DNA from: Deltaproteobacteria bacterium
Lineage (GTDB): Bacteria > Desulfobacterota > RBG-13-43-22
DNA: 37,600 bases
Assembly: GCA_016219065.1 (NCBI GenBank)
Contig: JACRCK010000019.1
Location: 1-37,600 of the forward strand
Reading direction: 5' to 3'
Part shown: one piece after another, positions 5,808 through 37,592 of the stretch
Numbering within the stretch: the first letter of the stretch is position 1
Layout: every line of letters begins with the position of its first letter
The notes under the pieces: generated by a model
What the model was told of the DNA's origin: nothing
The model's database searches: none
The model's input: the letters and a program-made list of their open reading frames with translations, nothing else
Program-made: the position numbers and the translations under genes

Positions 5808-7082
5808 ATGAAAGGTTACGGGTGGGGGAAAATTTGGCCGTTGGTGTTGTCCATGATCCTGGTGGGAGCCTGCTCCGGCGAAAGAAAGGTGAATATCAAG
5901 GAGATTACTTCCAGCCCCAAGACCTACATCGGATCCGAGAAATGCAAAACGTGCCATCTGGAGCATTACGATTCCTGGAAAGGAACGCTGCACAGCCGCA
6001 TGCTCCAGGACACCAAGGTGAACCTGGACGCCTTGGTAACGGAGATCAATCCGGCCGTGATCCGGGCCGACCTGGAGAAAATCCCTGACCTCAAGGTCCC
6101 GGCCGCGCAGGTCTATATCCCCAAGGTGGAAGAGATCCGCTACACCATCGGCAATCAATGGAAGCAGCGCTACCTGGTGGAAAAAGGGGGCCTGCTCTAT
6201 ATCGCCCCGGTCCAATACAATGTCGATTCCGGGCGTTGGGTCAATTATCATGAAGATTCCTGGGATAAAAAACCTTGGATCAAGGGCTGCGGCGGTTGCC
6301 ACGCCACCGGTGTGGATATGTCCAAGAACTCCTTCAGCGAACCCGGCATCGGCTGCGAGGCCTGCCATGGTCCCGGATCGCATCATTACGCCCTGCCGAA
6401 AACCGCCGTTTTCGAAAAAAGGATGACCATCGCCAACCCCTCCAAGCTGCCGGCCGGGGTGGCCGTCCAGATCTGCGGGTCCTGCCATAACCGGGGAAAA
6501 TCCACCAAGGACAAAACCGTGGAATGGGCGGTAGGCTACCAGCCCGGGAAGGCCCTGGAAACTTTTTTCAAGTCCACCTCCTTTGCCGCCGGCGATGTGA
6601 AACAGATGTACGCCAATGAGTTTTCCAAGGGACATCACCAGCAGTATATCGACTGGCGACAGTCCAAACACCATACGGAGGGGGTTACCTGCACCTCCTG
6701 CCATTACGTCCACCAACTGGGGGTGCCCTCCACGAGGTCGCAAACCAAAAGCGCCGGATCCAAGGAATGCCTGTCCTGTCATTCCGTGATCAATAACAAT
6801 CTGGGGCATTCGATCCACTCCTTTGCCAATTGTGTCGGCTGCCATATGCCGCGGATTGCCTCCAGCGCGGAGTCCGGAGATCTGCACAGCCACGTCTTTG
6901 TGACCCTGCTGCCGAAGGACACGCTCAAGAACGATAAAATTCCCAACTCCTGTCAGACCTGCCATAAACACAAGGACGCCAATTTGGTCGACCTGCAAAA
7001 GCAGTTTGAGGCCATGTCGCAGCTTCCGAAGCCCCAGGGGAGAGTCATCGAAAATATAGTGAAGACCAAACCGGTGAAATAA
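5808..7082 (+). CDS. Octaheme c-type cytochrome lipoprotein
   Basis: A 424-residue lipoprotein: the signal ends in LVGACSG, with the lipobox Cys at residue 22. Eight CxxCH heme sites are visible at about residues 46, 161, 183, 223, 295, 321, 342 and 382. The spacing and CEACHGPGSHH resemble the cytochrome c554/decaheme-like families of extracellular electron transfer and nitrogen/sulfur respiration. The ATG follows AAAGGGGATAGCGC. The genes behind it encode an anchored triheme cytochrome, a cytochrome b and a porin, so this lipoprotein probably sits on the outer membrane or its periplasmic face and takes electrons from the inner-membrane module. The terminal acceptor is not shown by the sequence. 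A soluble periplasmic reductase role is possible. Confidence 0.9.
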   Translation: MKGYGWGKIWPLVLSMILVGACSGERKVNIKEITSSPKTYIGSEKCKTCHLEHYDSWKGTLHSRMLQDTKVNLDALVTEINPAVIRADLEKIPDLKVPAAQVYIPKVEEIRYTIGNQWKQRYLVEKGGLLYIAPVQYNVDSGRWVNYHEDSWDKKPWIKGCGGCHATGVDMSKNSFSEPGIGCEACHGPGSHHYALPKTAVFEKRMTIANPSKLPAGVAVQICGSCHNRGKSTKDKTVEWAVGYQPGKALETFFKSTSFAAGDVKQMYANEFSKGHHQQYIDWRQSKHHTEGVTCTSCHYVHQLGVPSTRSQTKSAGSKECLSCHSVINNNLGHSIHSFANCVGCHMPRIASSAESGDLHSHVFVTLLPKDTLKNDKIPNSCQTCHKHKDANLVDLQKQFEAMSQLPKPQGRVIENIVKTKPVK

Positions 7083-8634: not shown

Positions 8635-10128
8635 ATGGAAAAAGAAAAATGGTTGCGGACAAGTGTCGGACGAATGATTTTATGGCCCCTGGCCGCTTTA
8701 TTCCTGACTCTCCAGACACTGCCGGCGGCGGCCCAGGGGCCGGACAAGGACCTGCAGCAGCGCCTGGAACGGCTGGAAAAAGTGGTCCAGGAGCAGAGGA
8801 GCCTGCTGGAGAACTACGAAAAGGAGATGACCCAGTTAAAAAGTGAACTGAAGAAACAACACGAAGCCATCGACGATAAAGTCAAGGCCGCGGCCAAGAA
8901 GCCCGAGCACCTGGAAATGCTCAGGGAAATCATGGCCGATATCCGCCTGACCGAGACCCCGCAAACCGCGGCCGATCAGGAAGTCAAGACGATCTATGAC
9001 GAGGGCTTCTATTTAAAGGGGAAGGACGATCAACTCCGCATTAGCGGCTGGCTGCAGGGCGACGCCCGCTGGTTTCTGGACAGCGATAACCATGACAACG
9101 ACACTTTCCTGATCCGCCGGGCCCGCTTCGACGTGCGGGGCGTCCTGGAGGATGACTGGGCCTATCGACTCTATGCCACCTTCATCGGCGAACGCAACGG
9201 CGTCCTCCAGGAGGGCTGGCTGGAATATAAGAAATACCCTAGTTTCCGGGTCCGGGCCGGGCAGGTCTTCGAGCCCTTCAGCCTGGAAGCCATCTACTCG
9301 GCCTTGTGGACCGATTTCATGGAGCGGGCCGTCATCGTCAATTCCGTCTCCCCCCAGGAAGACATCGGGGTCATGATCTTCGGCAAATTCTGGGACAACC
9401 GGGTTGAGTACGGCATCGGGGCCTTCAATGGCCAGGGCCGCAACCGGGAGGCCGTGGTGGACGACAAGGACCTCACCGGCCGGTTGGTTTTTTCGCCCTT
9501 CCTGCATTCTTCTTCTCTGGCGGCCTTGAAAAAACTGAGCTTCGGCGGGTCCTACGGTACGGGGAACAACAAACAGGACCTGAGCGGTTTCGATCTGCGG
9601 ACCGAAGCCACTACCACCTTCCTGGATATCCAGACCGGCGTCAACCAGGACGGCCGTCTGACCCGCTGGGGTGTGGAGCTGGATTACGCACTCGGGCCCT
9701 TCGGTATGAAAAGCGAATATATTACGTCCCGGTTTGACGACGTGGTCCGGGGAACGGCCAAAACCTATTACGAACAGCGCGGGGCCTACCTGACGGCCGG
9801 CTACGTGCTGACCGGAGAGGACTGGGCCCAGAACGCCACGGTCAAGCCCAAGCGCAACTTCGATCCGTCCAAGGGCGGCTGGGGGGCCTTCCAGCTTCTG
9901 GGCCGCTACCAGTACATCGAAACCGACGACAACATCATCAAAAGCGGATTTGCTGTCGGAACAGATAAGGCGCAGACCGTTACTCTTGGCTTGAACTGGT
10001 ACTGGAATCGCCACGTCCGTTTTCAGCTCAATTATTCCTATTCCTGGTTTGATGATATAATCACTGTGGGCGGTGTAAAACTGGATAAGGAAAGCGTCAT
10101 TCTCTCTCGCTTTCAGTACGTTTTCTAA
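8635..10128 (+). CDS. Outer-membrane porin with N-terminal coiled coil
   Basis: A 497-residue porin of the phosphate-selective porin O/P type. It has a signal peptide (residues 1-34, ending PAAAQG), a coiled coil at about 37-85 (DLQQRLERLEKVVQEQRSLL) and then a beta-barrel ending in LSRFQYVF with a terminal Phe. The coiled coil is typical of porins that trimerise or touch peptidoglycan. GGAGGAAAGG lies upstream of the ATG. It closes the cytochrome operon and is followed by a strong terminator. In porin-cytochrome conduits the barrel surrounds a cytochrome that spans the outer membrane. The octaheme lipoprotein is the candidate partner, but a simple anion porin is equally possible. Confidence 0.88.
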   Translation: MEKEKWLRTSVGRMILWPLAALFLTLQTLPAAAQGPDKDLQQRLERLEKVVQEQRSLLENYEKEMTQLKSELKKQHEAIDDKVKAAAKKPEHLEMLREIMADIRLTETPQTAADQEVKTIYDEGFYLKGKDDQLRISGWLQGDARWFLDSDNHDNDTFLIRRARFDVRGVLEDDWAYRLYATFIGERNGVLQEGWLEYKKYPSFRVRAGQVFEPFSLEAIYSALWTDFMERAVIVNSVSPQEDIGVMIFGKFWDNRVEYGIGAFNGQGRNREAVVDDKDLTGRLVFSPFLHSSSLAALKKLSFGGSYGTGNNKQDLSGFDLRTEATTTFLDIQTGVNQDGRLTRWGVELDYALGPFGMKSEYITSRFDDVVRGTAKTYYEQRGAYLTAGYVLTGEDWAQNATVKPKRNFDPSKGGWGAFQLLGRYQYIETDDNIIKSGFAVGTDKAQTVTLGLNWYWNRHVRFQLNYSYSWFDDIITVGGVKLDKESVILSRFQYVF

Positions 10129-12625: not shown

Positions 12626-12691
12626 TTAGATTCTTACAACCATTGTTCAGCGGTTTTTTCCAACCAAAAAAATTTAAAATTTTTTTGGTTA
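12626..12691. repeat. Dispersed AT-rich element, copy 2 (inverted relative to 937-1070)
   Basis: It contains TTAGATTCTTAC with CCATTGTT (12626-12647), CGGTTTTTTCCAACC and the AT-rich palindrome AACCAAAAAAA / TTTTTTTGGTT (12662-12690). Read on the minus strand the parts occur in the same order as in copy 1. The element abuts and supplies the TAA stop codon of molybdoenzyme 2 and fills most of the gap to the porin. Confidence 0.75.
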
Positions 12692-15600
12692 GATTTTCAA
12701 CAATTTTACTTTGGTGTCATAAAAGGAAACACTCCCGCCCACCGGATCAAACATACAGGTATTTTTAAGCTGGGGATCGATCCACATGGCGGCATTGGCA
12801 TTGAACCCTTTAGCCCGTTTGGGATCGCCTGGAATGATTTCACCGTTCACCATGATGTCCGAGGCCCCGGTAGCCCAATGCCCGTGGCCGATGGTGAAGG
12901 TGATGACGCCCGGCTGGATGGTCTCGGTAACCTGGACTTTGCCGATGATGTCCTTCCGCCCGCCGCCTTTCAAATCCCAGATGCCGTCCGGATTGGTGGC
13001 CGAAACGATCCGGACCTGATCGTCCGGTTTGAGGCCCAGGCGTTCGGCGTCCATCCGGTTGATCACCACGGCGTTCTCCGGATAGATCTCCGTGAGCCAG
13101 TAGTTCGATATGGTCCGGGATTTGGTCATGGTGATATCCCGCTGAGTAATCAGGTGCAGGTCAAAACCCTGGGTGAGGCCGGCCTCCTCGGGCGTTTTCC
13201 CGGCGGCGGTAAAAATGGGCAGATAGTGGGGGTAGCCGGGGTTGCTTTTCCCGGTGAAGGCGTTTTTAGTTTCCGCGGTTTTTTCCTGATACATGGTAAA
13301 GAGCTTGCCGTACTGGTTGGCCACCTGTTCTCCCTGGTATTGATCTGTATAATCCTGGAACCGCCCGCCCCGGTTCAGCACATAAACGACTTTGCGCCAG
13401 ACCGGGCCGGCAATCTTTTCCCAACGCTGGGGGTCGAAGATGGTCCGGGGCAGGTGCTTCCGGGAGTCGAGAAAAAGCTTCAATTCGGCATCGTCCGCGT
13501 CCGGCACCGGGGTGCCGTCCGTGGCGAAATTGGCCACCATCCGGATGTAGAAGTCGTCCGGCCGATTGAAGTCCTGCCCGGGACCAAATCCGTCTTTGCC
13601 GTACCCCGGCAGACCGAGTTTCTCGGCCAGGGCCAGTTGCAGGGCATCATAGGAGCAGGGCATCTCCTCGCCGAAGACCTTGACGATTTCGGTAATGGGG
13701 GCCATGACCGGCTGCTTGATCGGCTGGACCCGGGCCGGCATATTGGGATGACTGCCGTGAAACTCCCAGCGCTCCAGGTCGGAGAGGTCCGGAAACAGAT
13801 AGTCGGCGTACAGGGAGGCGGAGCCGATGGTGATATCGGGAACGAAAAACAAGGGCACCTTCTCCAGATCGGCCAGCACGGCCGTAATGGTCTGGCCGGC
13901 CGGCAGGGCATAGTTGGGGGCGCACATATACCCAAAAAGGGCCTTGATGGGATAGGGATAGGCGTCGCCGATGGAGGGCAGGATCTCCTCATAGACGTCG
14001 CTGGCCAGGGGCCACCAGTTCCGCTTGGCCGGGTAGCCGCTGAAGATCGTGCTGTCTTCGTATTTGATGTCGTGCCGGATAATGCTGATCCCGAAGCGGC
14101 CGAGCTTGCCGGGGGCCATTTTGCCTAAATCGAAGGGCTGTCCCGGTTTGCCGCCCGCCCCGCCGTAAGTGGAGGCCACGATCATGCCCCCTTTCCAATC
14201 AAAGTTGCCGAGCAGGAGGTTGACGGCCCAGGCCAGGAGGATGGAATAGAAACCGTTGGTGTGCTGAGCCACGCCCCGGTGGATGTCCACGCAGGCCCGT
14301 TTGCCGGCACTGGTGAGTCCTTTGGCCACCTCCTCGATATCTTCCGGGTTGAGGCCGCAAAGGGCGGCCCATGCTTGGAACGATTTTTTGTTGACTTCCT
14401 CCCGCATGATCTGCAGGCCGGTTTTCACCCGGATCCCTTTGATTTCCCGGTCGACCAAAAGGTCCCCCGTCACGGCCCGGCCGGCATCGTTGGGATCGAA
14501 GGCTTCCGGCCGGTCGCCTTTCCATACCACCAGGTATTCGAACTCCTGCTCCTTACCGGCGGCGTCCTTCCGTTTCTCCGGTTGGGCCAGCCCGATCTCC
14601 TGGGCGCGGAGAAACCTTCCCGGGCGGCCGTCCCGGTCGACCTTGACCAGCCAGCAGAGGTTGGCGTAGGTGGGTTCGCCGGCCTTTTTAGCCGCGGCCA
14701 GGTTGGCGTTCGCCAGGTATTTTTCATCATAGCGTTTGTTCTTCAGCATCCACTGGAGGATGGCCGAAAACAGGGCCCCGTCGGTTCCGGGCTTTACCGG
14801 CAGGTATTTGTGGGCCTTGGAAGCCAGTTTGCTGAAGCGCGGGTCGGCCACGGCGATCCGCACCTCCCCGTCGGTCAAACGCGGGGAAAGGCGGACGGTC
14901 CGGTTGGTGGGGCCATAGTTGGCGTCGAAAAGGTTGGCTCCGACGAAGAGAATGTATTTGGAATTCTCGATGTCCCCCTGCCAGTAAAATTTACTGCCGC
15001 CGCCGAAGCGGTTCCCCTGGTACTGTTCGCTGCAGGCCTTGGAGGCGAAATACAGGGAACCCTGGCAGACCGTCGTATGGCCGTGGGTATTGACCGTGCC
15101 GAAGTAGTCGCCGAAGAAGCGGGCGGAAAAATCGCCCCGTCCGCCTTTCTTTCTCCCCCACATGTAGACGAAATGGTTATTCTTCGGGCCCAGGTCCGGA
15201 TGGTCGGGGTCGATGAGGTCTTTCAGGTTGGCCGCGTGTTTGACCTTGAAGGCCGCTACGGCGGCCTTTTTATCCTGGGCCTTCTGGAGCGCCCGGGCGT
15301 CTTCGGCCATGTCCTTCATCACCCGGGGGTCCCGCAGGGCATAGATTTCCTGCAACCCGGTCACCACCCGGTTTTCTTCGCCGGGAACGTGGCTGAACAG
15401 CTTCCCGCCGTTGACGATTTCATCGATGGCCTGGGGAAAGGGGATGGTTCGCCATTGGTTTTCCCCCCGCCGGCCGGCCCGTTTGAGGACCTTGACCACC
15501 CGGTAGGGATCGTAAGCCGCCTGCAGCCCCGCATGACCCTTCGGGCAGATGGACAGGTCCTCCTTGGCCAGGTCGAAGGGGGAGGTGCGGTAGGAGGCGT

Positions 15601-15904
15601 GGGGCACCGAAAGCCAGGGGCTGTAGGCGCTGCCGTCGATTTTGACGGCGTAGGCTTTGCCGTTCTGGCGATACATCTTAACCTTGATCCCGCAGCCGGT
15701 GTTGCATTGCATGCAGACCGTATAGAGGATATTCTCGGTCTTCTTGAGTTCGTAGTCCTCTTCGGGCGTCAGCGTTCCCGCCTCGGCCCGCTGGATCAGG
15801 TCGAAGACGCCCTCCAGTTGGGAGGCCCAGAAGGCGCCGCCCAGGATGGCCGAACATTTGATAAAGTCCCGCCTGGAAAATCCATCGGCTGGTTGTTCGC
15901 TCAT
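12689..15904 (-). CDS. Tat-exported molybdopterin oxidoreductase 2 (TtrA/ArrA-like)
   Basis: A 1071-residue catalytic subunit of the DMSO reductase family. It has a Tat signal (SRRDFIK, residues 10-16) and an N-terminal [4Fe-4S] motif with Cys at 64, 67, 71 and 120 (CMQCNTGC and CPKG). The likely molybdenum ligand is Cys280 in HGHTTVCQGSLYF. Its length fits TtrA-like tetrathionate reductases better than ArrA (about 850 residues), but no substrate can be assigned. It is a clear paralogue of molybdoenzyme 1 (shared DPYR-VKVLKRAG, DPDHPD-GPKNN, AYPYPIKAL). A ferredoxin subunit is encoded 12 bases upstream, but there is no second membrane subunit, so it probably shares the NrfD-type protein or uses the pentaheme cytochrome. 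Confidence 0.9.
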   Translation of the reverse strand: MSEQPADGFSRRDFIKCSAILGGAFWASQLEGVFDLIQRAEAGTLTPEEDYELKKTENILYTVCMQCNTGCGIKVKMYRQNGKAYAVKIDGSAYSPWLSVPHASYRTSPFDLAKEDLSICPKGHAGLQAAYDPYRVVKVLKRAGRRGENQWRTIPFPQAIDEIVNGGKLFSHVPGEENRVVTGLQEIYALRDPRVMKDMAEDARALQKAQDKKAAVAAFKVKHAANLKDLIDPDHPDLGPKNNHFVYMWGRKKGGRGDFSARFFGDYFGTVNTHGHTTVCQGSLYFASKACSEQYQGNRFGGGSKFYWQGDIENSKYILFVGANLFDANYGPTNRTVRLSPRLTDGEVRIAVADPRFSKLASKAHKYLPVKPGTDGALFSAILQWMLKNKRYDEKYLANANLAAAKKAGEPTYANLCWLVKVDRDGRPGRFLRAQEIGLAQPEKRKDAAGKEQEFEYLVVWKGDRPEAFDPNDAGRAVTGDLLVDREIKGIRVKTGLQIMREEVNKKSFQAWAALCGLNPEDIEEVAKGLTSAGKRACVDIHRGVAQHTNGFYSILLAWAVNLLLGNFDWKGGMIVASTYGGAGGKPGQPFDLGKMAPGKLGRFGISIIRHDIKYEDSTIFSGYPAKRNWWPLASDVYEEILPSIGDAYPYPIKALFGYMCAPNYALPAGQTITAVLADLEKVPLFFVPDITIGSASLYADYLFPDLSDLERWEFHGSHPNMPARVQPIKQPVMAPITEIVKVFGEEMPCSYDALQLALAEKLGLPGYGKDGFGPGQDFNRPDDFYIRMVANFATDGTPVPDADDAELKLFLDSRKHLPRTIFDPQRWEKIAGPVWRKVVYVLNRGGRFQDYTDQYQGEQVANQYGKLFTMYQEKTAETKNAFTGKSNPGYPHYLPIFTAAGKTPEEAGLTQGFDLHLITQRDITMTKSRTISNYWLTEIYPENAVVINRMDAERLGLKPDDQVRIVSATNPDGIWDLKGGGRKDIIGKVQVTETIQPGVITFTIGHGHWATGASDIMVNGEIIPGDPKRAKGFNANAAMWIDPQLKNTCMFDPVGGSVSFYDTKVKLLKI

Positions 15905-15916
15905 TGATTTTTCCTC

Positions 15917-16765
15917 CTAAAGGATATAAAAAAGCCGCGGCTTGGTGGGGGCCTCGCCGAATACCGGCGTTTTGCCCGGATAGGTTTCGGCGGCTTTAAC
16001 CACCGCTTCTTTCCATTCCTGTTTGGAAAGTTCGAAGTTCTTCGAAGCGACGTGCCGGGCCACTTCCACGGTCTCCTGGACATAGGCCATGGTCACGGTT
16101 TTATTGGCCTTGATGACCTTGCTGATCAGGCTTTGCGGGTCATCGCCGTCGCCGAAATAGGTGGCCCGGCTGACGCAGGTGGTTACACAGGTGGGGAGCA
16201 TGGCCTCCTTGAGGCGCTGGTAGCAGAAATGGCATTTCCGGGCGGCGCCCATGGGCCGGTTGGTACCTTCCCGCATCCACTTGGCGCCGAATTCCCAGGT
16301 GGGCCCTTTTTCCATCTCGGGGACGAAGGGGGCATTTTCGGCGTGATAGGTGACGCCGTCCAAATTGGGCGCCCCGTAAGGGCAGGCGGCCACGCACCGG
16401 CCGCAGCTCACGCATTCCTTGTAGTTCATCATGACGATGCCGGTGCTGATTCCTTCCCGGCCTTTATAAATGGCCTTGCCTTCGGTGGGGCAGGATTTGA
16501 CGCAGGGCGGATCGTCGCAGTGCTGGCAGGGCCGGGGCACGAAGGTCCGCTTGACGTTCGGATACTTCCCGGACTCCAGCCCGTAGACCGGCCGGTAGCG
16601 GACCCCGGGCGCCGATTTGTATTCCGCCATGCAGCCCACGCAACAGGCGTGGCACTGGATGCAGCGCCGGTTGTCGATGAGCATCACCCAGCGCTGCTTA
16701 TCTTTGGTCAGGGCCCGCTGCAAATCCTCCCGCATGATGATCAATTCGTCTCGGTTTTCGTACAT
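15917..16765 (-). CDS. Four-cluster ferredoxin subunit 2 (PsrB/TtrB-like)
   Basis: A 282-residue iron-sulfur protein with four cysteine groups: CIQCHACCVGC, CQHCDDPPCVKSC, CVSCGRCVAACPYG and CHFC with a later C-x3-C. This is the usual four [4Fe-4S] electron-transfer subunit of DMSO-reductase-family complexes. There is no signal peptide, so it is probably carried out with the Tat-tagged molybdoenzyme encoded next (12-base gap). It starts 13 bases after the stop of the selenocysteine cytochrome. Compared with ferredoxin 1 it has a C-terminal extension of about 50 residues ending in KPRLFYIL that I do not recognise. Confidence 0.92.
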   Translation of the reverse strand: MYENRDELIIMREDLQRALTKDKQRWVMLIDNRRCIQCHACCVGCMAEYKSAPGVRYRPVYGLESGKYPNVKRTFVPRPCQHCDDPPCVKSCPTEGKAIYKGREGISTGIVMMNYKECVSCGRCVAACPYGAPNLDGVTYHAENAPFVPEMEKGPTWEFGAKWMREGTNRPMGAARKCHFCYQRLKEAMLPTCVTTCVSRATYFGDGDDPQSLISKVIKANKTVTMAYVQETVEVARHVASKNFELSKQEWKEAVVKAAETYPGKTPVFGEAPTKPRLFYIL

Positions 16766-16778
16766 GGTTCCTCCCCCC

Positions 16779-18086
16779 TTATCTCAGGCTTACCGTCGTG
16801 CTGTGCTGGGCGAGGGCGTATTTGTCCTTGCCTTCCACCGCCTGCCGAGGGTCGCCGCCGGCCGGCAGATGCCAGATTTTAACGGTCACATCCAGGTCCT
16901 TGTTTTTGATGTTCCGGATCTTCTTGCCGTCCTTTTCCGTATCTTCATAGGGAAACTTGATCTCGAACGTTTCGGTCTTCCACTGGCCGGGCTGGAGGCT
17001 TGTATCGGCCAGCATGCCGGACTTTCTGAAGGGGCCGTACACCATCTTGTCCCCCCGACCGTAAGCCGGAGATTGGGGCATGTAAATTTTGTAATCGTAA
17101 TAGACTTCCCGGCCATCCTTGGTCTTGGCGATCACTTCCAGGATCACCCGGTTGGGGGACGGTCAGCCGTCCGGGATGCGGTGCCCCGCTTTGTTGAACA
17201 TCTTGACCGTCAGTTCCGCCGTGGGCACCCAGTCGCCGGCCTTGGGCAGGAACTGATAGGACCGCGTCTCGACCACCAGTTCGACCGCCTTCGCGGCCTG
17301 GGCCTTGTCCCGGTAGGCGGGGATCAGGTGATCCTTGACCGCCAGATTCCGGCCGATTTTGATATCCGCCATGTGGCATTCCTGGCAGTTCTTGTTTCCG
17401 CCGCTGGGAATATAGGCGTGCAGGTAGCTGCCGTACAGGGTGGCGCACTGGGTGGGTTGATGAAATTCAAAATTAGGTCCCAGGCCATGGCACTGCCCGC
17501 AGAGGATGGCCTGATCCATGACCGGGCTCTTTTTGATCCCCGGGTTCTTTTTGCCGGGGTGAACGCCGGCCACCAGCGCGCCGTAGACCGTCTTCGGCTG
17601 GATCTCGCCGTCCACCCACTTGTGCGTGATGGCCTTGTTGTTATGGCAGACCACGCAATTGATGCTGACCTTGTTCAAGGTGTCCTTGTCGCCGGCCAGG
17701 ATGGCCTTGGCCAGATCCTGGGCGACTTTATCGGTGGCGTTTTTGATCTGCGGCAAGTGGCAGGAAAAACAGGTGGCCATATGCTCTACCTTGATATCCT
17801 CCACTTTTTTTACCCCCGAATATTTCCATTCCCCCATCAGGGCGTCGGTAATAAAATTTTTCAAGGTAGCCAGGGTCCGGGGTGTTCCGACCAGGGACTG
17901 GGAGTGAATGGATTTTTCCCAGGTTTCGTAAATCTTCAGATGACAGGCCTTGCAGGATGAGGAATCATACATCCGGGCCAGTTCATCGATGGTCCCGGCC
18001 TTTTTCGTCTCCTGGCCGTGGACCAGGATTGCCGGGGCCAGGACAGCCAAAAATGATACCAGCAGCAGCCATTTTAAAACCCGCAT
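16779..18086 (-). CDS. Pentaheme cytochrome c with in-frame UGA (putative selenoprotein) 1
   Basis: Read through the TGA at 17163-17165 this is one 435-residue protein. A signal peptide (MRVLKWLLLVSFLAVLAPAI) is followed by five CxxCH hemes at about residues 45, 106, 144, 196 and 234. A C-terminal beta domain begins with NKAGHRIPDG-Sec308-PSPNRVILEV. Related cytochromes carry GHKxPTG-x-PSRR here, so Sec stands at the variable position of a known motif. The downstream part has no signal peptide, heme or convincing start of its own, yet it is homologous to the same part of the second copy (DTSLQP, ETFEI). A hairpin follows the TGA. The start at 18086 has AGGAG. The operon context suggests electron transfer to or from the two molybdoenzymes. 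Its layout recalls Geobacter ExtK/ExtL, from memory only. Confidence 0.85.
17127..17148 (-). promoter_or_regulatory. SECIS-like hairpin downstream of the UGA, copy 1
   Basis: In the mRNA, bases 15-21 after the UGA (GGUGAUC) pair with bases 30-36 (GAUCGCC), giving 7 bp with one G-U. The 8-base apical loop is CUGGAAGU. The loop starts 22 bases after the UGA, within the distance known for bacterial SECIS elements. The second cytochrome has the same hairpin at the same place. Confidence 0.65.
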
Positions 18087-18178
18087 GGTTTTCTCCTGTT
18101 TAGTGTTTTCATTACCGGGCAAAATTTTCATGCTTCGCAGGTTCTCACCAAGAGATGGGTTATAGGAACCATCGTTCC

Positions 18179-19244: not shown

Positions 19245-22200
19245 CTACACCTTTACCAGCTTGACCTGGCTCTGGTAAAAGACCGCGCTCCCGCCCACTG
19301 TATCCACCAGGCCCGTATTCTTCAGGTGGGGATCGACGCGCATGGCGGCGTTGGCGTGAATTCCCGTGCCCCGCCGCGGATCGCCGGGTACGGTCTCACC
19401 GTCGATGGTCACGGTCTGGGCGCCGTATGACCAGTGCCCATGGCCGAGGGAAAAGGCGATTACTCCGGGACGGAGCCCTTCCCGGACCTTGATCCGGGCG
19501 ACCATGGGTTTCTTGGTGCCGTTCCCCAGGTCCCAGACCCCCTCGGGATTGGAAACGGAAACGGTTTTTACGAGGTCGCCGTCTTTCAACCCCAGACGCC
19601 GGGCATCGAAAGAGGAGATATCCACGAAATTTTCCGGGTACAGGGCCTGGAGCCAGTAATTGCCCGAAGTCCGGCTCTTGGTCTGAGAGATGACCCGGTA
19701 GGTGATCAAGGTCAGGTCAAACCCCTGGGCCTGGTCATTGATCGGCCGACCGAGACAATCCAACGGACCCCCAATAAAATCGGCATGGGCTTTATAGGCC
19801 TTCCCGGTCATGGGATGTTTGTGGGTAGCCAGCTTCTCCATATAGATGCCGACCATCTTTCCGTATTTGTTGGCTAATTGATCATCCTTATAGGCCTTGT
19901 CGTAAGCCTGGAAACGGCCCCCCCGGTTGAGGACGTAAATCGTCTGGGCCCACCAATCCGGGCCGAGCAGCGCTTCCCACCGCTTGTGATCAAATACAGA
20001 AGCGGGCAGATGACGCCGGGCCTGCTTGAAGATCTCCATCTCCCGGGCATCGGCCCCCGGGACTTTTTCCGATCCGTCGGGTTTGTCGCCGAAGGCCACA
20101 TTGGCCGTCATGCGCAGATAGAGGTCCTCTTCCCGCTTGAAGTGCAGCCCCGGACCGAAGGCATTCTCTCCGAACCCCGGCAGCTTCAATTTCTCGGCCA
20201 GGGCCAGGAGCAGGGATTCCAAGGAGAGCGGCATTTTTTCCCCGAAGACGGTGACGATTTCCGTCAGCGGGGCGGCGGCCGGCTGTCGAATGGGGGCTAC
20301 CTTGGGGGTAACCGAGGGATGGGAGCCCGCAAATTCCCACCGTTCGAGATAGGTCAGATCGGGGAAGATGTAGTCGGCGTACATGCTGGTTTCGCCGATG
20401 ACGATGTCGGAGGCGATCACCAGGGGGATTTTTTTCGGATCCGAGAGGATCTTGATCAGCTCGTGGCCGGCGGGCAGGGCGTAGACCGGGCTGCCCATGT
20501 AGAGCAGCAGGGCCTTGATAGGATAGGGGTAGGCGTCACCCATACTGGGGATGATTTCCTGATAGATGTCGCTGGAAAAAGGATACCAGTTTCTTTTAGC
20601 CGGATATCCTTCAAAGATCGTACTTTTTTCATAATAGGTTTCATGGCGGATAATGGAAATCCCCCAGGGTTTGATTTTGCCCGGCATTTTCCGGAGATCA
20701 AAAGGTTTGCCTTCTTTACTGCCGATCGCATCGTAGGTAGTCAACTTGGAAAGCCCGCCCTTCCAGTCATGATTACCGATCAGGGTGTTGACGGTCATCC
20801 AGGCCAGCACATTGTAAAAACCGGAGGTATGTTGAGAGACCCCCCGGTGGATATCGGCCACGGCCTTCCGACCATGGCTGGTAAATTCCTGGGCCAGCTC
20901 AATGATTTCCTTTTCCTTCACCCCCACCAATTCCGCCCATTGGGGCATGGTGCGCGCCAGGGCCGCTTCCTTCAGAAGCTGCAGCACGCTTTTTACCGGG
21001 ATGTCCTTGAGGCGGGTATCGACAAACAGGTCACCCTCCACCGCCTCTTTTTCCCCATTGGGGTCAAAGGGTTTGGGCTGGCCTGCGCTCATAACGATAA
21101 AAGGATCGAACTCCCATTGTTCCGGTTTTTCCCCCTCCTTGGGTTTCGCCCCTTCCTTGGGCTTCTTGGTCCGTTTTTCCTTGGGGAGGCCCAAATCGGA
21201 CCCTCTCAGGAAGGCCCCCGGTTTTCCGTCCTCTCCGATTTTGACCAGCCAGGGGGCCTGGGTCCAGGTCGGTTCCTCGTCTTCCGCGGCGGCGGCTTTA
21301 TTGGCATTAACCAGATAGCCGGCATTGAACCGTTCATGTTCTATAATCCAGCGGATCATGGCCAGGGCCAGGGCGCCGACCCCGTTGGGGGCGATGGGCA
21401 GCCACTTCCAGGCCCGGGCCGCCGTCTTGGAGCAGCGGGGATCCACGACAGCGATTTTCAGCCGCCCGTCCACCATCCCCTGGGTCAGCTTCTGGACCCG
21501 CAGCGGCGGGCCGTAATTGGCCTCGAAAGGGCTGGCGCCCACGAAAAGAATGAATTCGGCGTTACCCGTGTCGCCCTGCCAGTAGAATTTACTGCCGCCC
21601 CCGAATTTCCCTTCCTCGAACTGGTCGCTCATGGCCCGGCAGGTGAAATAGAGGGACCCCTGACAGACGGTGGTATGACCGTGGGCATTGAAGGAACCGA
21701 AGGCATCCCGGGTGAAACGGTTGATCATATCGCCCCGGCCCCCTTTCAGCCGGCCCCAGTTGAAGCAAAACTGGTTGTTCTTGGGGCCGAAGTCCGGGTG
21801 GTCGGGATCGATCAGGTATTGCAGATTTTCTTTGTGTTTTTCTTTGAACTCCGCCGGAGTCATCTTTTTTTCCGCCACATTTTTGGCGTCTTCGGCCAGG
21901 GCAGCGGATAGCTCCGGGTCTTTCAGGACGTAGAGGTCCTTGAGCCCCGCCACCGGGCCTTCTCCGAAGAGATTCCCCCCCTCGACGACCTCCTTGATGG
22001 CCTGGTCAAAAGGAATGGATTTCCATTGGTTCGCCCCCCGTTTCCCGGCCCTTTTCAGAACCTTGACGATCCGGTACGGATCGTAGAGGGCCTGGACTCC
22101 GGCCTGCCCCTTCGGACAGAGGGAACCGTCAATCGGGGCGGCCTCGGCCAGGGGCGTGGCGTAGGGGATATGGGGGGTCAGGGTCCAGGGATTGTAAGGG

Positions 22201-22484
22201 TTCCCGTCGATTTTGGCCACCTCCCCGTCCTTGATTTTAACCTTCATTCCGCAGTTGGTGTTGCACTGCTGACAGACGGTATAGATCAGATTTTCCGGGA
22301 GGTGCAGGGTATATTCCTTACCCAGCAGGTCATCGGCGAAAGCGGGGGAACCGGCTTCTTCATCGAGAAACTGCCACAGGGCGCCGGAGGCGGCCAGGGA
22401 ACCGCCGAGCAGGGCGGTACACTTGATAAATTCCCGGCGGCTCAGATCGGTCTTGAGCAGGGATTTTTTATTGGTCTTAGGCAT
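19245..22484 (-). CDS. Tat-exported molybdopterin oxidoreductase 1 (TtrA/ArrA-like)
   Basis: A 1079-residue DMSO-reductase-family catalytic subunit. It has a Tat signal (SRREFIK, residues 15-21), a [4Fe-4S] motif at Cys71, 74, 78 and 123 (CQQCNTNC and CPKG) and a probable molybdenum ligand Cys274 in HGHTTVCQGSLYF. A Lys/Glu-rich loop (TKKPKEGAKPKEGEKPEQ) in the middle is absent from the paralogue at 12689. Upstream are the NrfD/PsrC subunit (8-base overlap) and the ferredoxin, the standard three-subunit set of tetrathionate, polysulfide or arsenate reductases. The protein should be periplasmic. Substrate is unknown. The size favours a TtrA-like enzyme. Confidence 0.9.
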   Translation of the reverse strand: MPKTNKKSLLKTDLSRREFIKCTALLGGSLAASGALWQFLDEEAGSPAFADDLLGKEYTLHLPENLIYTVCQQCNTNCGMKVKIKDGEVAKIDGNPYNPWTLTPHIPYATPLAEAAPIDGSLCPKGQAGVQALYDPYRIVKVLKRAGKRGANQWKSIPFDQAIKEVVEGGNLFGEGPVAGLKDLYVLKDPELSAALAEDAKNVAEKKMTPAEFKEKHKENLQYLIDPDHPDFGPKNNQFCFNWGRLKGGRGDMINRFTRDAFGSFNAHGHTTVCQGSLYFTCRAMSDQFEEGKFGGGSKFYWQGDTGNAEFILFVGASPFEANYGPPLRVQKLTQGMVDGRLKIAVVDPRCSKTAARAWKWLPIAPNGVGALALAMIRWIIEHERFNAGYLVNANKAAAAEDEEPTWTQAPWLVKIGEDGKPGAFLRGSDLGLPKEKRTKKPKEGAKPKEGEKPEQWEFDPFIVMSAGQPKPFDPNGEKEAVEGDLFVDTRLKDIPVKSVLQLLKEAALARTMPQWAELVGVKEKEIIELAQEFTSHGRKAVADIHRGVSQHTSGFYNVLAWMTVNTLIGNHDWKGGLSKLTTYDAIGSKEGKPFDLRKMPGKIKPWGISIIRHETYYEKSTIFEGYPAKRNWYPFSSDIYQEIIPSMGDAYPYPIKALLLYMGSPVYALPAGHELIKILSDPKKIPLVIASDIVIGETSMYADYIFPDLTYLERWEFAGSHPSVTPKVAPIRQPAAAPLTEIVTVFGEKMPLSLESLLLALAEKLKLPGFGENAFGPGLHFKREEDLYLRMTANVAFGDKPDGSEKVPGADAREMEIFKQARRHLPASVFDHKRWEALLGPDWWAQTIYVLNRGGRFQAYDKAYKDDQLANKYGKMVGIYMEKLATHKHPMTGKAYKAHADFIGGPLDCLGRPINDQAQGFDLTLITYRVISQTKSRTSGNYWLQALYPENFVDISSFDARRLGLKDGDLVKTVSVSNPEGVWDLGNGTKKPMVARIKVREGLRPGVIAFSLGHGHWSYGAQTVTIDGETVPGDPRRGTGIHANAAMRVDPHLKNTGLVDTVGGSAVFYQSQVKLVKV

Positions 22485-25268: not shown

Positions 25269-27476
25269 CTAATGGGTCGTTGGCCTGGAGATGCCGTAGC
25301 GCTTCATTTTTTGATACAATGTATTTCGGCTGATTCCCAGATTTCCGGCCGCCTCTTTCTTGTTCCACTGGCATTTTTCAAGGGTTTCGAACAATACTTC
25401 CTGCTCCTTTTCGGCCATGGTCGCCAGCCCGGAAGGCTGCCCCCCTTTCCGAGACGGAGGGGCGTTTTTTTTGAGATTAGCGGGCAGGTCCAGCGCCTCG
25501 ATCCGGGTTCCCTTGGCCAGGACGACCGCATGCTCCACGCTGTTTTCCAACTCGCGGACATTTCCGGGCCAGGGGTAAGTGAGCATCAGGCGCAGCGCTT
25601 CGGGACTGAAGTCCTGAACGCTTTTGTTCTGTTCCTCGCTGAAATGGCGCAGAAAGCGCCGGGCCAGCAAGGGAATGTCGTTCGGCCTTTCCCGTAAAGG
25701 AGGCAGGTTCAGCGGGATGACGTTTAGACGGTAATAGAGATCCTCCCGGAATCTTCCGGCCTTGACTTCCTGGAGGAGATCCTTGTTGGTGGCGGCCAGG
25801 AAATGCACGTTGACGGTCAGAGTCTTTTCTCCGCCCAGTCTCTCGAAACTCTGGGTCTGCAGAATCCTCAGGAGTTTGATCTGGGCCGAAGGGGGGATTT
25901 CCCCGATTTCATCCAGAAAAACGGTCCCCCCATTCGCCTTTTCAAAGCGCCCGATCTTTTGCCGCGTCGCGCCGGTGAAGGCCCCTTTCTCATGGCCGAA
26001 TAATTCGCTCTCCAGCAGCGTGGCCGGATAGGCGGAACAGTCTATGACGATAAAGGGTTTATCTCTTCTTTGGCTTAAATGATGGATGGCCCGGGCCACC
26101 ATTTCCTTGCCCGTCCCGCTTTCCCCCTGGATCAGCACGGTGGCATCGGTGGGGGCGATGTCCTCGATCAGCCGGAAGATGGACTGCATCTTCGGGTCTC
26201 GGCCAACGATGCCTTGAAATTCCGGGGCGGCCTCCAGAAGCTTTTCCATGTTGCGGGTTCCCTCCTCCTGCTGCAGGGCCCGGTGGATCACTCCGGAACA
26301 TTGATTCAAGGTCAGTTCCAGGCTTTCCACCTCCTTCAACCCGGCGTCGTATTCTTTCGGCCGTGCAAAGATCAGTAACCCGAAGGTCTGCTCTTCAAAG
26401 CGCAGGGGAATCGCGAGCTGCGGCCCTTCGACATCCATCTCCTTCGGGAGCCTCGGGAATCCCTTCCCGGTCTCGATGGTCTCGCGCACCTCTTTAAGCT
26501 GGGCTGAAAAAGAGGCGACTTTTCCGGGTTCGTCCGTCCATTTCAGTGTGTTCTCGGAGATAACCCAGTAACCCTCTCTGTTATTGGTCAGAAGCAGGAA
26601 AGCCATAGGTGTGGGGGAGGGAAGCATGGCCTGAAACTGCTTGATGAGGTAGACGCCGATTTCCTTGAGGCTGCGCAAAGCCCCGATCTCTCGAATTACA
26701 TTGCAAAAAGTCCGGGTCTGCTGGTTCGAGCGAATCAATTCCTGCGTTTTTTCTTTGAGCATGCGGGTGTAGTCCTCGATACGGGCAACCATCCGGTTGA
26801 AGGAGGAGGCCAGACTTCCTACTTCGTCCGTCCCCTGGATCGTTACCCGCACTCCGGTTTCCCCACGATCGATTCTTTCCATGGCCCGGGTCAAGGTTGA
26901 AAGGGGGCCGGTAATCCGCCGGATAAAAAAGAGGGTCCCGATCACTGCCAGGAAAAGGATCCCAGCGGTCAGCAGCCCCATTTCCAGCCAGAGACGGCGC
27001 ACCTTGTCCTGGTAAGGTTTTTCCACCAGGCCCAGGCGGAGGACTCCGGCCTTGCCCTCGAACACCGGCCAGGCGATGTCCAGGTAGGGGATCCCGTCGG
27101 TGGAGACGATCTTTTGCAGGCGTTGTCGCCCGTCCGGAGCCAGGCGGTTGGCCTTTACCAGATTGGTGGGCAGGCCGCCTCGAAAGGAGTGGGCCAGAAT
27201 TTCGTTCCCGCGTTGAACGAAAAGATACCCGATCCCGTTGTGACTGCCCATCTGATGCTCGATCATTTTCTGAAGTCCCGCCAGATCATTGATCAGGACC
27301 TTGTCCGCCGTCTCCAGGGCGATGGCCAGGGCAATACTTTCCCCCTGGGCCATCATCGTTTCCAGCAGACTGGACCGGTGCCGTTCGCCGACCAGTAGGG
27401 AAATCAGCAGTCCGCTGCCAACAACGAGGGAGGAGACGGCTATAATCAGCCGACCTTTAAGGCTTCTTAGAAGCAT
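25269..27476 (-). CDS. Membrane-bound sigma-54-dependent activator (HAMP-GAF-AAA+-Fis)
   Basis: A 735-residue one-component regulator. Order of domains: TM helix 9-29; periplasmic domain about 30-165; TM helix about 165-185; HAMP about 186-240; GAF-like about 260-400; AAA+ from about 420 with Walker A GESGTGKE (451-458), the sigma-54 contact motif GAFTGA (498-503) and Walker [12 protein letters not shown] (516-526); C-terminal Fis HTH ending [17 protein letters not shown]. There is no receiver or kinase domain, so signal and output are in one membrane protein. It overlaps the PhnD-like lipoprotein gene by 20 bases, and the two are likely a sensor pair. The next operon downstream has a strong sigma-54 promoter, its probable target. 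Confidence 0.92.
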
Positions 27477-28416
27477 GGGGGTTCTCCTTCAACAACAACG
27501 TTCTCTTCCGGATTTCCTCGGTGTTTTCGAACCAGTCGGCCGGCGGAGTGATGAAACGGTCGATCATCAGCCCCTGGAGGATCTGCCGGCCTTCGTTCTC
27601 GAGATGGACGGCGAGCAGGATTTGACGGACCTGATCACTTTTTTCCGGGGGAAATTTTCGGGAAGCCACGATTGGTGGAATGGCAAAGGGTTCCGATTTC
27701 CGAATTATTCGGGTGGCTCGGGTAAGCTCCGGACGGGTGCTCTGAAAATACTCCCAAACCAGGCTGTCCACGGCCGCCCCATCCACGAGCCCCCGGCCGA
27801 CGGCCAGAATGGAGTTGTCGTGGCTGTAGGTGTAAATGATCCTGGAAAAAAAAGTTTCCGGCTTTTCGCCTTTTTGATGGAGCCAAAAACTGGGCGCCAG
27901 TCGACCGGTGTTGGATTCCGGATCCGTGAAGGCAAAAACCCGGCCTCTTAGGTCTTCCAGCCGCTGATAGGGCTTATTGGCATTTATGATGAGGTAGGAG
28001 CGATAGAAATGGTCGTTCTGAACCTGAGGAACGGCCAATACCTGGAAACCATATTTTTCTTTTTTGCCCGCGTAAGGGCCGGAGCAGATAAAGGCTATGT
28101 CTATCTCTCCCCGGTCCAGAAGCTGGTTAATTTCATGATAGGTTTTACGCTGGATCAATTCTACCGGCCTGCCGACCTTCCGCCCGATATATGCAAACAG
28201 CTCCCGGTAATGGACAAAGGTTTCCTTCGGGGAAACCATGGCCCCAATCGCCACTTTTCGTGAAGGGGGCGAGGCCTTGGGGGAGGGCGGGTTTTCCCGG
28301 GAACCGATATCCTGGAAATCAACCACGACGGGGGCGGAATCTTTGGCGCAGCTCCACCAGAGCAGGGGAATGATCAGGAAAGGCAAACAAGCCCTCCAGC
28401 GGGCCGCAATTCGCAT
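27457..28416 (-). CDS. PhnD-like periplasmic substrate-binding lipoprotein
   Basis: I use the ATG at 28416 with AGAGGAAAC upstream, giving 319 residues. The lipobox is LLWWSCAKD. The mature part has the PhnD/AioX fold pattern: VAIGAMVSPKETFVHYRELFAYIGRKVGRPVE (split here as two conserved segments), then IDIAFICSGPYAG, DLRGRVFAFTDPESNTGRLAPSF and DGAAVDSLVWEY. Family members bind phosphonate, phosphite, arsenite or similar oxyanions. No ABC permease or ATPase gene is adjacent. Instead it overlaps the gene of a membrane sigma-54 activator, so a sensory role as in AioX/AioS or the PhnD-like part of TtrS is more likely than transport. The ligand is not known. Confidence 0.85.
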   Translation of the reverse strand: MRIAARWRACLPFLIIPLLWWSCAKDSAPVVVDFQDIGSRENPPSPKASPPSRKVAIGAMVSPKETFVHYRELFAYIGRKVGRPVELIQRKTYHEINQLLDRGEIDIAFICSGPYAGKKEKYGFQVLAVPQVQNDHFYRSYLIINANKPYQRLEDLRGRVFAFTDPESNTGRLAPSFWLHQKGEKPETFFSRIIYTYSHDNSILAVGRGLVDGAAVDSLVWEYFQSTRPELTRATRIIRKSEPFAIPPIVASRKFPPEKSDQVRQILLAVHLENEGRQILQGLMIDRFITPPADWFENTEEIRKRTLLLKENPHASKKP

Positions 28417-28450
28417 GTTTCCTCTCTCCCTCATCGGCCGTTGGGCCGGG

Positions 28451-33380: not shown

Positions 33381-34580
33381 CTACGGAGTTTCGATCCGTA
33401 TCTGCCGGACAAGGGAATGCAGGGGAAAGATGTTACCCGGGCGAGGTTGGTAGGTCAACCGGACCGTTAAGGCGATTTCCTTGATCCCTTTGGGGACCGG
33501 GATTTCAAAGGTCTCCTCCTTCGGCCGGAAAGGCTGCAAGCTGGTGTCGCGCAGCAGGCCGAGCTTTTTGTCCGGCCCCAAGGCCATGACCGGGCCGCGG
33601 CCGTCGCCGGCCTGGGGCATGTAAAATTTTGAGCCTTCATAGAGTTTCCGCCCGTCGGGGGCGGTAGCGGTCACCTCCAGGACCACCCGGGTGCGGGTGG
33701 GTCAGCCGTCCGGGATGCGGTGGCCGGCCTTGTTGGTGATCCGGGTTTTGACCACGGCCAGCGGCTGATGTTTCCCCTCCTCCAGCTGAAAGACATAGCC
33801 CAGGGTTTCCACCTCGAGCGGCAGGGCTTGGCGGAGGCGGGCCGAAGTGCCGGCCCGGTCGTTGAAGTTCGGCAGGCTGCTGTGGTCCCGGCCCGGCATG
33901 TGGCAATCCTGGCAGGTTTGGGAGCCGCCGCCCGGCAGGTAGGCATGGAGATAGCTGCCGTACAGGGTGGCGCACTGGACCGGATTTTCGAATTCCAGAT
34001 TGGGACCGAGGCCGTGGCACTGGCCGCAGAAAAGGGGGTCCTTCAGCAGGGGGCTTTTCTTCACCGGGAGGCCTTCATGATCCTTGATTGCCCGATTTCC
34101 GTAGAGAGCGGATTTCTCCGGCCGGCCGTGGACCACGGCCCTGTCCTGGTGGCAGATCCGGCAGCCGATATTCAAACGGCTGACGGTTTTTTTGTCGTCC
34201 CGGAAAACGGCCGCGGCCAGTTCGGCGGCCACGGCATCGCTGGCCTGGAAAAGCTGGGGCAGATGGCACTTGGCGCAGGGAAAGTTGGCCTTGGTGGCCT
34301 GCTGCGGTGACTTGACGGAAAGGACGCCCTCCTTGAGGTACTTGGACATGAAAATCCAACCGTCCATACCCATGAGGGGCCGGGCGTGATGAGATTTTTC
34401 CCATTGGGCGTAGATCTCTCCGTGGCATTCCCGGCACCGGGTGGAATCGTAGCGGTCGATCAATTCCTTCAGAGAGCCAATTTCCTCCTTCCGTCCTTCA
34501 CCAAAAAGATAGAGGGGCACTAGGAGGATGAATAAAGCGGTTGATAAAACCAGGTAAAAGGGTCCTCTTTTTTTAGGCAT
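33381..34580 (-). CDS. Pentaheme cytochrome c with in-frame UGA (putative selenoprotein) 2
   Basis: Read through the TGA at 33702-33704 this encodes 399 residues. A signal or anchor segment (PFYLVLSTALFILLVPLYLF) is followed by five CxxCH hemes at about residues 49, 102, 140, 185 and 223, then TNKAGHRIPDG-Sec293-PTRTRVVLEV and a C-terminal beta domain with KFYMPQAGDGRG and DTSLQP. It is a paralogue of the cytochrome at 16779 along the whole length, and the TGA is at exactly the same place. The ATG overlaps the end of the thioredoxin-fold gene by 8 bases. It is the last gene of the arsenite permease cluster, so it may be made with it. The role is unknown. Electron transfer at a redox-active Sec is an inference. 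Confidence 0.85.
33666..33687 (-). promoter_or_regulatory. SECIS-like hairpin downstream of the UGA, copy 2
   Basis: Bases 15-21 after the UGA (GGUGGUC) pair with bases 30-36 (GACCGCU), 7 bp with two G-U, around the loop CUGGAGGU. Position and shape equal those of copy 1. The A-U pair of copy 1 is G-C here, a compensatory change. A second stem just after the UGA (CCACCC with GGGUGG) competes with this fold. Confidence 0.6.
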
Positions 34581-36887: not shown

Positions 36888-37592
36888 TTAAGAAAAAAAG
36901 AAAGGATTGGCGATAAAATACAGTCCCAGCATACCGATGAGCACCCCGGCCCCGCGGCGAAACCAATGTCCCCCGGTCTGCCAGGACTGGTTCTCGATCA
37001 CTTTGCGGACGGCGGCAGTGGAACTGCCGGCCACCACGATGGGCAGGCAATGGCCCACGGCGAAGAGCAGGATCAGGAGCAGACCGGCGGAGACTTCCTT
37101 CTGAATGGAGATGACGGCCAGGATGGGGGCGATAAAGCCAAAGGTACAGGAGCCGGACAGGACGCCATAAGCCAGACCCAGGACCAAGGCCCCCAAAAGG
37201 CCCTTCAGATTCAGAACCTGCAGCAATCTGCTGGAATAGGAGCACTTCTCGACCCCCAGCATACCCAGGGCCACCCAGATCAGGATCAGTCCCACCAGGA
37301 TTTGCCAGTAATTGCCGATATCGCCGAGCATCCGGCCCAGCAGGGCGGAGACGACCCCGATGAGCGCGATGGTGATGAACAGACCGCCGGTAAAAGCCGC
37401 CGAATAATAGCCGGCCTGCCGGGTCCGCAGGAGCCGTTCCTGCCCTCCCACGTAGGCCACGATCAAGGGGATGGAGGCCAAATGGCAGGGACTGAAGAGC
37501 ACGCTGACCATCCCCCAGAGGAAGGCCCCCAGGAAGGCGATGACCGATCCGCCCGCCAGCCACTCGTTGATGGTCAGAAAAATTTGTTCCAT
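36888..37592 (-). CDS. CcdA/DsbD-like thiol-disulfide membrane transporter
   Basis: A 234-residue protein with six transmembrane helices and the CcdA pattern: GMVSVLFSPCHLASIPLIVAYVGG near the N-terminus and YGVLSGSCTFGFIAPILAV in the second half, each holding one of the two reactive Cys. Such proteins pass reducing equivalents from cytoplasmic thioredoxin to periplasmic thiol proteins, for example for cytochrome c maturation. The TAA stop is inside the ribosome-binding site of the UxxU protein gene, so the two are coupled, and the UxxU protein is a possible redox partner. The ATG is 9 bases from the window edge, so its promoter is not visible. Confidence 0.9.
   Translation of the reverse strand: MEQIFLTINEWLAGGSVIAFLGAFLWGMVSVLFSPCHLASIPLIVAYVGGQERLLRTRQAGYYSAAFTGGLFITIALIGVVSALLGRMLGDIGNYWQILVGLILIWVALGMLGVEKCSYSSRLLQVLNLKGLLGALVLGLAYGVLSGSCTFGFIAPILAVISIQKEVSAGLLLILLFAVGHCLPIVVAGSSTAAVRKVIENQSWQTGGHWFRRGAGVLIGMLGLYFIANPFFFS

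Follow-up and report, generated by a model that had tools for sequence, protein, structure and literature searches.

Two pentaheme cytochromes of the ExtKL family with a predicted selenocysteine in a Desulfobacterota genome

Two genes of a Deltaproteobacteria bacterium (phylum Desulfobacterota) almost certainly encode selenoproteins of the ExtKL (MccSep) family, predicted from sequence to be pentaheme c-type cytochromes. Both lie in the stretch of 37,600 nucleotides analysed here (the window) and are called ExtKL-1 and ExtKL-2 (Table 1). Ordinary reading of these genes cuts the cytochromes in half. The identification is based on two paralogues having a UGA in one alignment column, their scores against the family model NF040886, the alignment with the MccSep protein of the PDB, the sel machinery found in the assembly, the tally of residues in the UGA column, and the synonymous constraint, stem pairs and covariation after the UGA. 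The interrupted cytochrome is a further member of a known family, which was predicted in 2007 and of which a relative's structure has since been solved.

Table 1. Positions of the ExtKL genes, their recoding signals and adjacent molybdoenzyme genes in the window
Feature	Position	Strand	Remarks
TtrA-like molybdopterin oxidoreductase	12689..15904	minus	TtrA model 406.1 bits, cut-off 1750
TtrB/DsrO-like 4Fe-4S subunit	15917..16765	minus	directly downstream of ExtKL-1; below NCBIfam cut-offs
ExtKL-1, predicted pentaheme c-type cytochrome selenoprotein	16779..18086	minus	NF040886 498.8 bits; 435 residues, Sec308
SECIS-like hairpin of ExtKL-1	17127..17148	minus	8/8 pairs; RNA fold, family covariation
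In-frame UGA of ExtKL-1, read as selenocysteine	17165..17163	minus	translation, MccSep alignment
Second TtrA-like molybdopterin oxidoreductase	19245..22484	minus	TtrA model 498.1 bits, cut-off 1750
ExtKL-2, predicted second pentaheme cytochrome selenoprotein	33381..34580	minus	NF040886 442.9 bits; 399 residues, Sec293
SECIS-like hairpin of ExtKL-2	33666..33687	minus	8/8 pairs
In-frame UGA of ExtKL-2	33704..33702	minus	alignment column identical to that of the ExtKL-1 UGA

An in-frame UGA in two ExtKL genes

The ExtKL-1 ORF starts with an ATG at 18086, with an AGGAG sequence (18097..18093) 6 nt upstream, and an in-frame ATG further upstream, at 18131, is a possible alternative start. With the TGA translated as Sec, the protein reads ...NKAGHRIPDG-U308-PSPNRVILEV... 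and continues for 127 residues beyond the Sec to a TAA (16781..16779). The original prediction of a TGA-split pentaheme cytochrome with a 127-residue continuation, made without naming a strand, is thus confirmed and placed on the minus strand. The downstream piece was also said to lack heme and a good ribosome-binding site. Indeed, it has no CXXCH motif, and no Shine-Dalgarno-like sequence was seen in the 18 bases preceding its first GTG (17147). ExtKL-1 and ExtKL-2 have the same layout, in which the N-terminal part contains five CXXCH heme motifs, the UGA stands at the conserved column, and a non-heme C-terminal part follows. In a search of the whole assembly with the ExtKL-1 protein, the only strong matches were these two copies; the third match (E 2.4e-4) lies within a multiheme protein at 5808-7082. 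Since a paralogue of 43% identity and 104 of 110 homologues have a TGA in that column, the in-frame TGA is more than chance.

NF040886 is named 'multiheme c-type cytochrome (seleno)protein ExtKL' and has a cut-off of 250, which ExtKL-1 (498.8 bits) and ExtKL-2 (442.9 bits) both exceed. The suspected relation to ExtK/ExtL of Geobacter was therefore correct. It was also found that ExtKL-1 matches MccSep, a 'multiheme cytochrome c selenoprotein' with the PDB entries 9wt8, 9wt9, 9wta, 9wtb and 9wtc, among them a U325A mutant. The E-values are 1.5e-118 (mutant chain) and 2.7e-118, and Sec325 of MccSep aligns with Sec308. MccSep is the depositors' name, and the comparison was made by chain names and sequence.

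How conserved is the UGA? In a sample of 395 genomes of the phylum, 39 genomes have ExtKL matches above the NF040886 cut-off. There are 49 such matches when two pieces in genome G113 are counted as one; 42 contain one TGA, six contain no stop, and one contains a TAA. Locus sequences covered 30 of the 49. A contig scan confirmed 172 loci, and the best 80 of these, picked by likeness to the window proteins, supplied further homologues. The alignment joins 105 distinct sequences with six added copies, of which five showed no TGA in the sample listing (including that of locus L138) and one is distant (locus L139). One truncated copy without Sec was dropped, giving 110 sequences; a copy in L140 with a broken frame was left out of the tally, as was the copy of G113 in L141. 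The column holds Sec in 104 sequences, Cys in four, Val in one and Ile in one, a tally in which the selection of the six added copies inflates the Sec-less share. Homologues with Sec or Cys in this column, which the original prediction had proposed to look for, thus both exist. The four Cys homologues have TGT where the TGA stands. In three of them no stop interrupts the match, and that of L138 has a TAA upstream of this codon, in the cytochrome part.

If the UGA were a real stop codon, one operon would yield two separate proteins, ExtK as a short pentaheme cytochrome and ExtL as a small protein. The 2007 report (PMC1914089, excerpted text) left this possibility open, no SECIS having been found. 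The Cys homologues argue against it, as do the MccSep chain, a single polypeptide whose Sec position is given as X and of which a U325A mutant exists, and the lack of a visible ribosome-binding site ahead of the downstream piece, so that a genuine stop is highly improbable. Less probable still are near-cognate suppression or a Trp reading of the UGA, a pseudogene, or a sequencing error. The assembly is a draft, which would suit an error, but the UGA is common to both window copies and to 104 of the 110 homologues, the other six have Cys, Val or Ile and never Trp, and tRNA-Sec and sel genes are present. All these readings were rejected on the Cys homologues, the MccSep chain, the column conservation and the sel machinery.

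The original prediction called for a search of the genome for sel genes. SelA (623.5 bits, cut-off 267.9), SelB (372.3 bits, cut-off 242.25), SelD (394.3 bits, cut-off 125) and tRNA-Sec (75.1 bits, gathering threshold 47) were all found above their cut-offs in the assembly, and ARAGORN also calls a tRNA-SeC(tca). These genes are on contigs other than that of the window, in a draft of 399 contigs with an estimated contamination of 8.68%. All 39 genomes in the sample whose ExtKL exceeds the cut-off have SelA, versus 316 of the 356 others; G113, the one other sampled genome of the genus, has both SelA and an ExtKL with TGA. This co-occurrence is consistent with the selenoprotein reading and not strong evidence for it, because SelA is so common in the phylum (355 of 395 genomes) that finding it is hardly informative.

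The conserved recoding position, the family membership, the sel machinery and the Sec/Cys exchange were all computed here, and together with the aligned Sec of MccSep they uphold the selenoprotein reading. In the proposed mechanism, the UGA would be decoded as selenocysteine by SelB and tRNA-Sec, and a short hairpin 17-38 nt past the UGA would probably direct the insertion. The product would be periplasmic and carry its five hemes N-terminally, followed by a beta domain at the C-terminus, with export and heme ligation predicted likewise.

Several loci deserve separate mention. L136 (G027:C12) has a tandem of ExtKL genes without TGA, in which the Sec column is Ile in the first and Cys in the second; a separate contig of G027 carries an ExtKL copy with TGA. 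L124 (G202:C132) also has a tandem without TGA, with Val in the first copy and a truncated second copy, and no ExtKL copy with TGA was found for G202 among the matches listed in the 395-genome sample. L139 (G035:C287) encodes a distant ExtKL-like protein of 172.8 bits, whose TGA also falls in the Sec column (PHRVPDS-U-PW). Since this score is below the cut-off, Sec extends beyond the curated family. In L097 (JALSPG010000135.1), another in-frame TGA precedes the Sec column by 104 residues; a mutation or an error of sequencing is a likelier cause than an additional Sec. Finally, the SelD gene of the window's own genome (L017, G000:C86:37337-38254, minus strand) has one in-frame TGA and probably encodes a Sec-containing selenophosphate synthetase. 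Selenophosphate synthetases containing Sec are a known type.

A candidate SECIS hairpin after the UGA

It was found that the RNA downstream of the ExtKL-1 UGA can form a hairpin with a 7-bp stem, a bulged U and an inner C-G pair, from +17 to +38 counted from the U of UGA. Its core has one compensating change, A-U for G-C. The hairpin was found from single-sequence folds and then assessed by pair counts, by synonymous shuffles, in which the codons were redrawn from each gene itself, and by slid controls; it was chosen on the same sequences that were later used to test it. The fold of the ExtKL-1 hairpin alone (28 nt) has a z of -2.69, and that of 60 nt from the UGA a z of -0.59. The ExtKL-2 hairpin alone (z -0.63) is not stabler than shuffles, and its 60-nt fold favours other pairs. 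RNAalifold gave no structure on the 81 main-group 60-mers.

For the main group of 81 Sec sequences, including both window copies, the hairpin has five core pairs (+19..+23 with +32..+36) and the bulged U at +31. All five pairs are kept in 74 sequences, three in six, and two in one. Among 51 non-redundant sequences, a mean of 5.88 of the 7 stem pairs forms versus 4.71 (sd 0.12) in synonymous-codon shuffles, and none of 1000 shuffles reaches the observed value; the outermost two stem pairs are held in just 23 and 29 of the 51. The codons at U+8 (CTG in 50/51), U+7 (GTC in 45/47), U+10 (GTG in 48/50) and U+11 (ACC in 41/46) are over-conserved. They rank 1, 2, 3 and 5 in synonymous constraint among 123 conserved columns, and 1, 3, 2 and 7 when the Geobacter type is added (62 sequences, 131 columns). 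The covariation of the hairpin pairs is 0.113, compared with 0.084 in shuffles (0/500 reach it) and 0.002-0.055 in six slid controls. Changes on both sides were found at four pairs in 10 cells, of which 7 come from the two outer pairs.

The Geobacter type has a different hairpin (+13..+18 with +26..+31). Standard pairs are formed in 22 of 22 sequences, with 6.0 of 6 pairs versus 3.75 in synonymous shuffles (0/1000). This group comprises 22 sequences, 7 of them non-redundant, and was split off by a motif within the hairpin stretch itself.

Do copies without Sec lack the hairpin? Of the five core pairs of the main group, the four Cys copies have 2, 2, 2 and 4, and the Val and Ile copies have 4 each. 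Seven of the 81 Sec copies have 2 or 3, fewer than one Cys copy and both copies without Sec or Cys. The hairpin is thus strongly constrained in the Sec copies as a group and cannot alone separate every Sec copy from the others. As far as these alignments can tell, the synonymously constrained hairpin-forming stretch, weaker in three of the four Cys copies, is a candidate SECIS element.

The original prediction implied novelty, but the family is not new as a selenoprotein candidate: the excerpted text of PMC1914089 (2007) already proposes GSU2937 and GSU2936 together as one, with neither a SECIS nor non-Sec homologues found. Beyond that report, most of the sampled family is now seen to have a constrained hairpin behind the UGA, with a different one in the Geobacter type, and Cys homologues exist, three of the four without most of the hairpin. 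Later work may already be aware of the hairpin and of the Cys homologues; the NCBIfam family name contains '(seleno)protein'. An excerpt of a 2026 review (PMC13188914) lists NF040886 as a selenoprotein.

Gene neighbourhood and TtrA-like molybdoenzymes

ExtKL-1 adjoins TtrB- and TtrA-like genes (Table 1), the TtrA-like proteins scoring far under the TtrA cut-off. Between ExtKL-1 and ExtKL-2 lies the second TtrA-like operon, which also encodes NrfD and TtrB-like subunits. The same interval holds genes for a sigma-54 activator, a PhnD-like protein, MetW, MetX and a serine acetyltransferase, and a sulfhydrylase-like gene. An ACR3 arsenite exporter gene (464.6 bits, cut-off 282.8) is located beyond ExtKL-2.

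Are the ExtKL proteins dedicated partners of the adjacent TtrA-like molybdoenzymes, forming one respiratory oxyanion reductase? The adjacency suggests it, and genome G102 repeats the order TtrA-NrfD-TtrB-regulator-sigma54-PhnD beside a TGA-bearing ExtKL, with an ACR3-like gene further on whose product is 70% identical to the window ACR3. Among the best 80 of 172 ExtKL loci, L035 has a TtrB-like gene (54%, 285 bits) and distant TtrA-like segments in its flank, L091 has weaker TtrB/TtrA-like segments, and L042 has a TtrB-like gene. On the other hand, of the 8 genomes among the 395 that have both an ExtKL above the cut-off and a TtrA-like match, only two (the window's genome and G102) have them within 20 kb, with a TtrA-like match taken at E <= 1e-100, at most two TtrA candidates scored per genome, and drafts that may hide neighbours. 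No ExtKL turned up in seven neighbourhoods around TtrA homologues (57-70%), three of which stop at contig ends, and the best TtrA segment in the 80 ExtKL loci, whose flanks are up to 8 kb and often shorter, scores about 70 bits. Such a dedicated partnership is therefore unlikely, and as a general rule it was rejected by the synteny test; the ExtKL-TtrA link is at most lineage-specific.

A narrower possibility is that this lineage recruited the two selenocytochromes as an electron partner or a second catalytic site of TtrA/Psr-like respiration. G102 repeats the arrangement with the PhnD-like sensor, the sigma-54 regulator and the nearby ACR3-like arsenite exporter. The possibility is rather doubtful, slightly more so than the partnership. 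If true, there would be a respiratory chalcogen or arsenic oxyanion reductase dependent on selenocysteine.

The PhnD-like periplasmic binding protein and the HAMP/sigma-54 activator are encoded at 25269-28434 on the minus strand, beside the second TtrA-like operon. The same two genes are found next to TtrA-like genes in G102, G311 and G385 and, more distantly, in G128, and they look like a conserved sensor-regulator for the TtrA-like molybdoenzyme. At 36888-37592 on the minus strand is a membrane protein gene that, at E <= 1e-10, matches just one NCBIfam model, that of the rhodanese/DsbD fusion-like selenoprotein TsoB, with 51.1 bits against a cut-off of 805.

The Sec residue and relatives of known context

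An AlphaFold2 model of ExtKL-1, made from 45 sequences, has a mean pLDDT of 81.3 and a pTM of 0.77, is weak around residues 201-251, and has strands from 268 to 433. Outside the CXXCH motifs, all 110 homologues have His61, His253, His302 and Cys214; His155 is found in 104 and His176 in 102. The invariant His302 may be an axial heme ligand, and the Sec, six residues later, would then be close to that heme. Cys214 was considered as a resolving Cys for the Sec and rejected; it also persists in the two copies that have Val or Ile at 308, and thus its invariance gives no evidence of pairing with the Sec.

The leading but tentative guess for the role of the Sec is redox catalysis by its selenolate, with the hemes serving it. 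The foremost candidate substrates would be selenite, tellurite or sulfur species, because a Geobacter study (PMC5877670, in excerpt) ties the ext cluster to selenite reduction. The link to selenite and tellurite reduction was made there through an ExtI mutant; the same excerpt mentions a preliminary study connecting ExtKL with selenite reduction, and an anti-ExtKL antibody was used. Excerpts of two other papers concern relatives: ExtKL is grouped with the pentaheme cytochromes (PHC) of cable bacteria, which are counted as potentially catalytic (PMC11976967), and an ExtKL homologue is highly expressed in Seep-SRB2 (PMC10553843).

The fold was compared by Foldseek with library entries released up to 8 April 2026. 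The best match to the ExtKL-1 model is the pentaheme cytochrome c552 of Thermochromatium tepidum (PDB 5ze8; E 4.8e-13), and MccSep was not among the matches. Cytochrome c552 resembles ExtKL-1 by a weak sequence match and by keeping the His of the GHxxPxG motif, but it has Ala instead of Sec in the column. In the sequence profile, its PHAMPTGAP is aligned with GHRIPDGUP of ExtKL-1, in agreement with the claim that the TGA occupies the variable position of a GHxxPTGxP motif.

ExtKL of Geobacter sulfurreducens (GSU2937-GSU2936), described in PMC6148476 and PMC5877670 (both in excerpt), shares with the window copies the five CXXCH motifs, the UGA column, the C-terminal part and a score over the cut-off. 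Among the best 80 of 172 loci, those of Geobacter, Geomonas, Geotalea, Citrifermentans and Geomobilimonas are 43-50% identical. The Geobacter context is the extHIJKLMNOPQS cluster with the ExtI porin, according to the excerpt of PMC5877670, and such a placement was not found in the window. Of 16 ORFs (E <= 0.001), the ORF 8635-10128 alone touched the ExtI model, with 25.3 bits against the NF040900 cut-off of 150, and no ExtI was found among 9 further window ORFs (E <= 1e-10). Since gene context varies within the family, this placement was not counted as defining ExtKL. The window lies outside the recurrent neighbour clusters of Geobacter-type ExtKL, its two copies sitting among TtrA-like operons, and the Geobacter type differs also in the hairpin after the UGA. 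MccSep, on which a literature search found no paper, is another sequence, whose homology to ExtKL-1 is nearly full-length with the Sec aligned.
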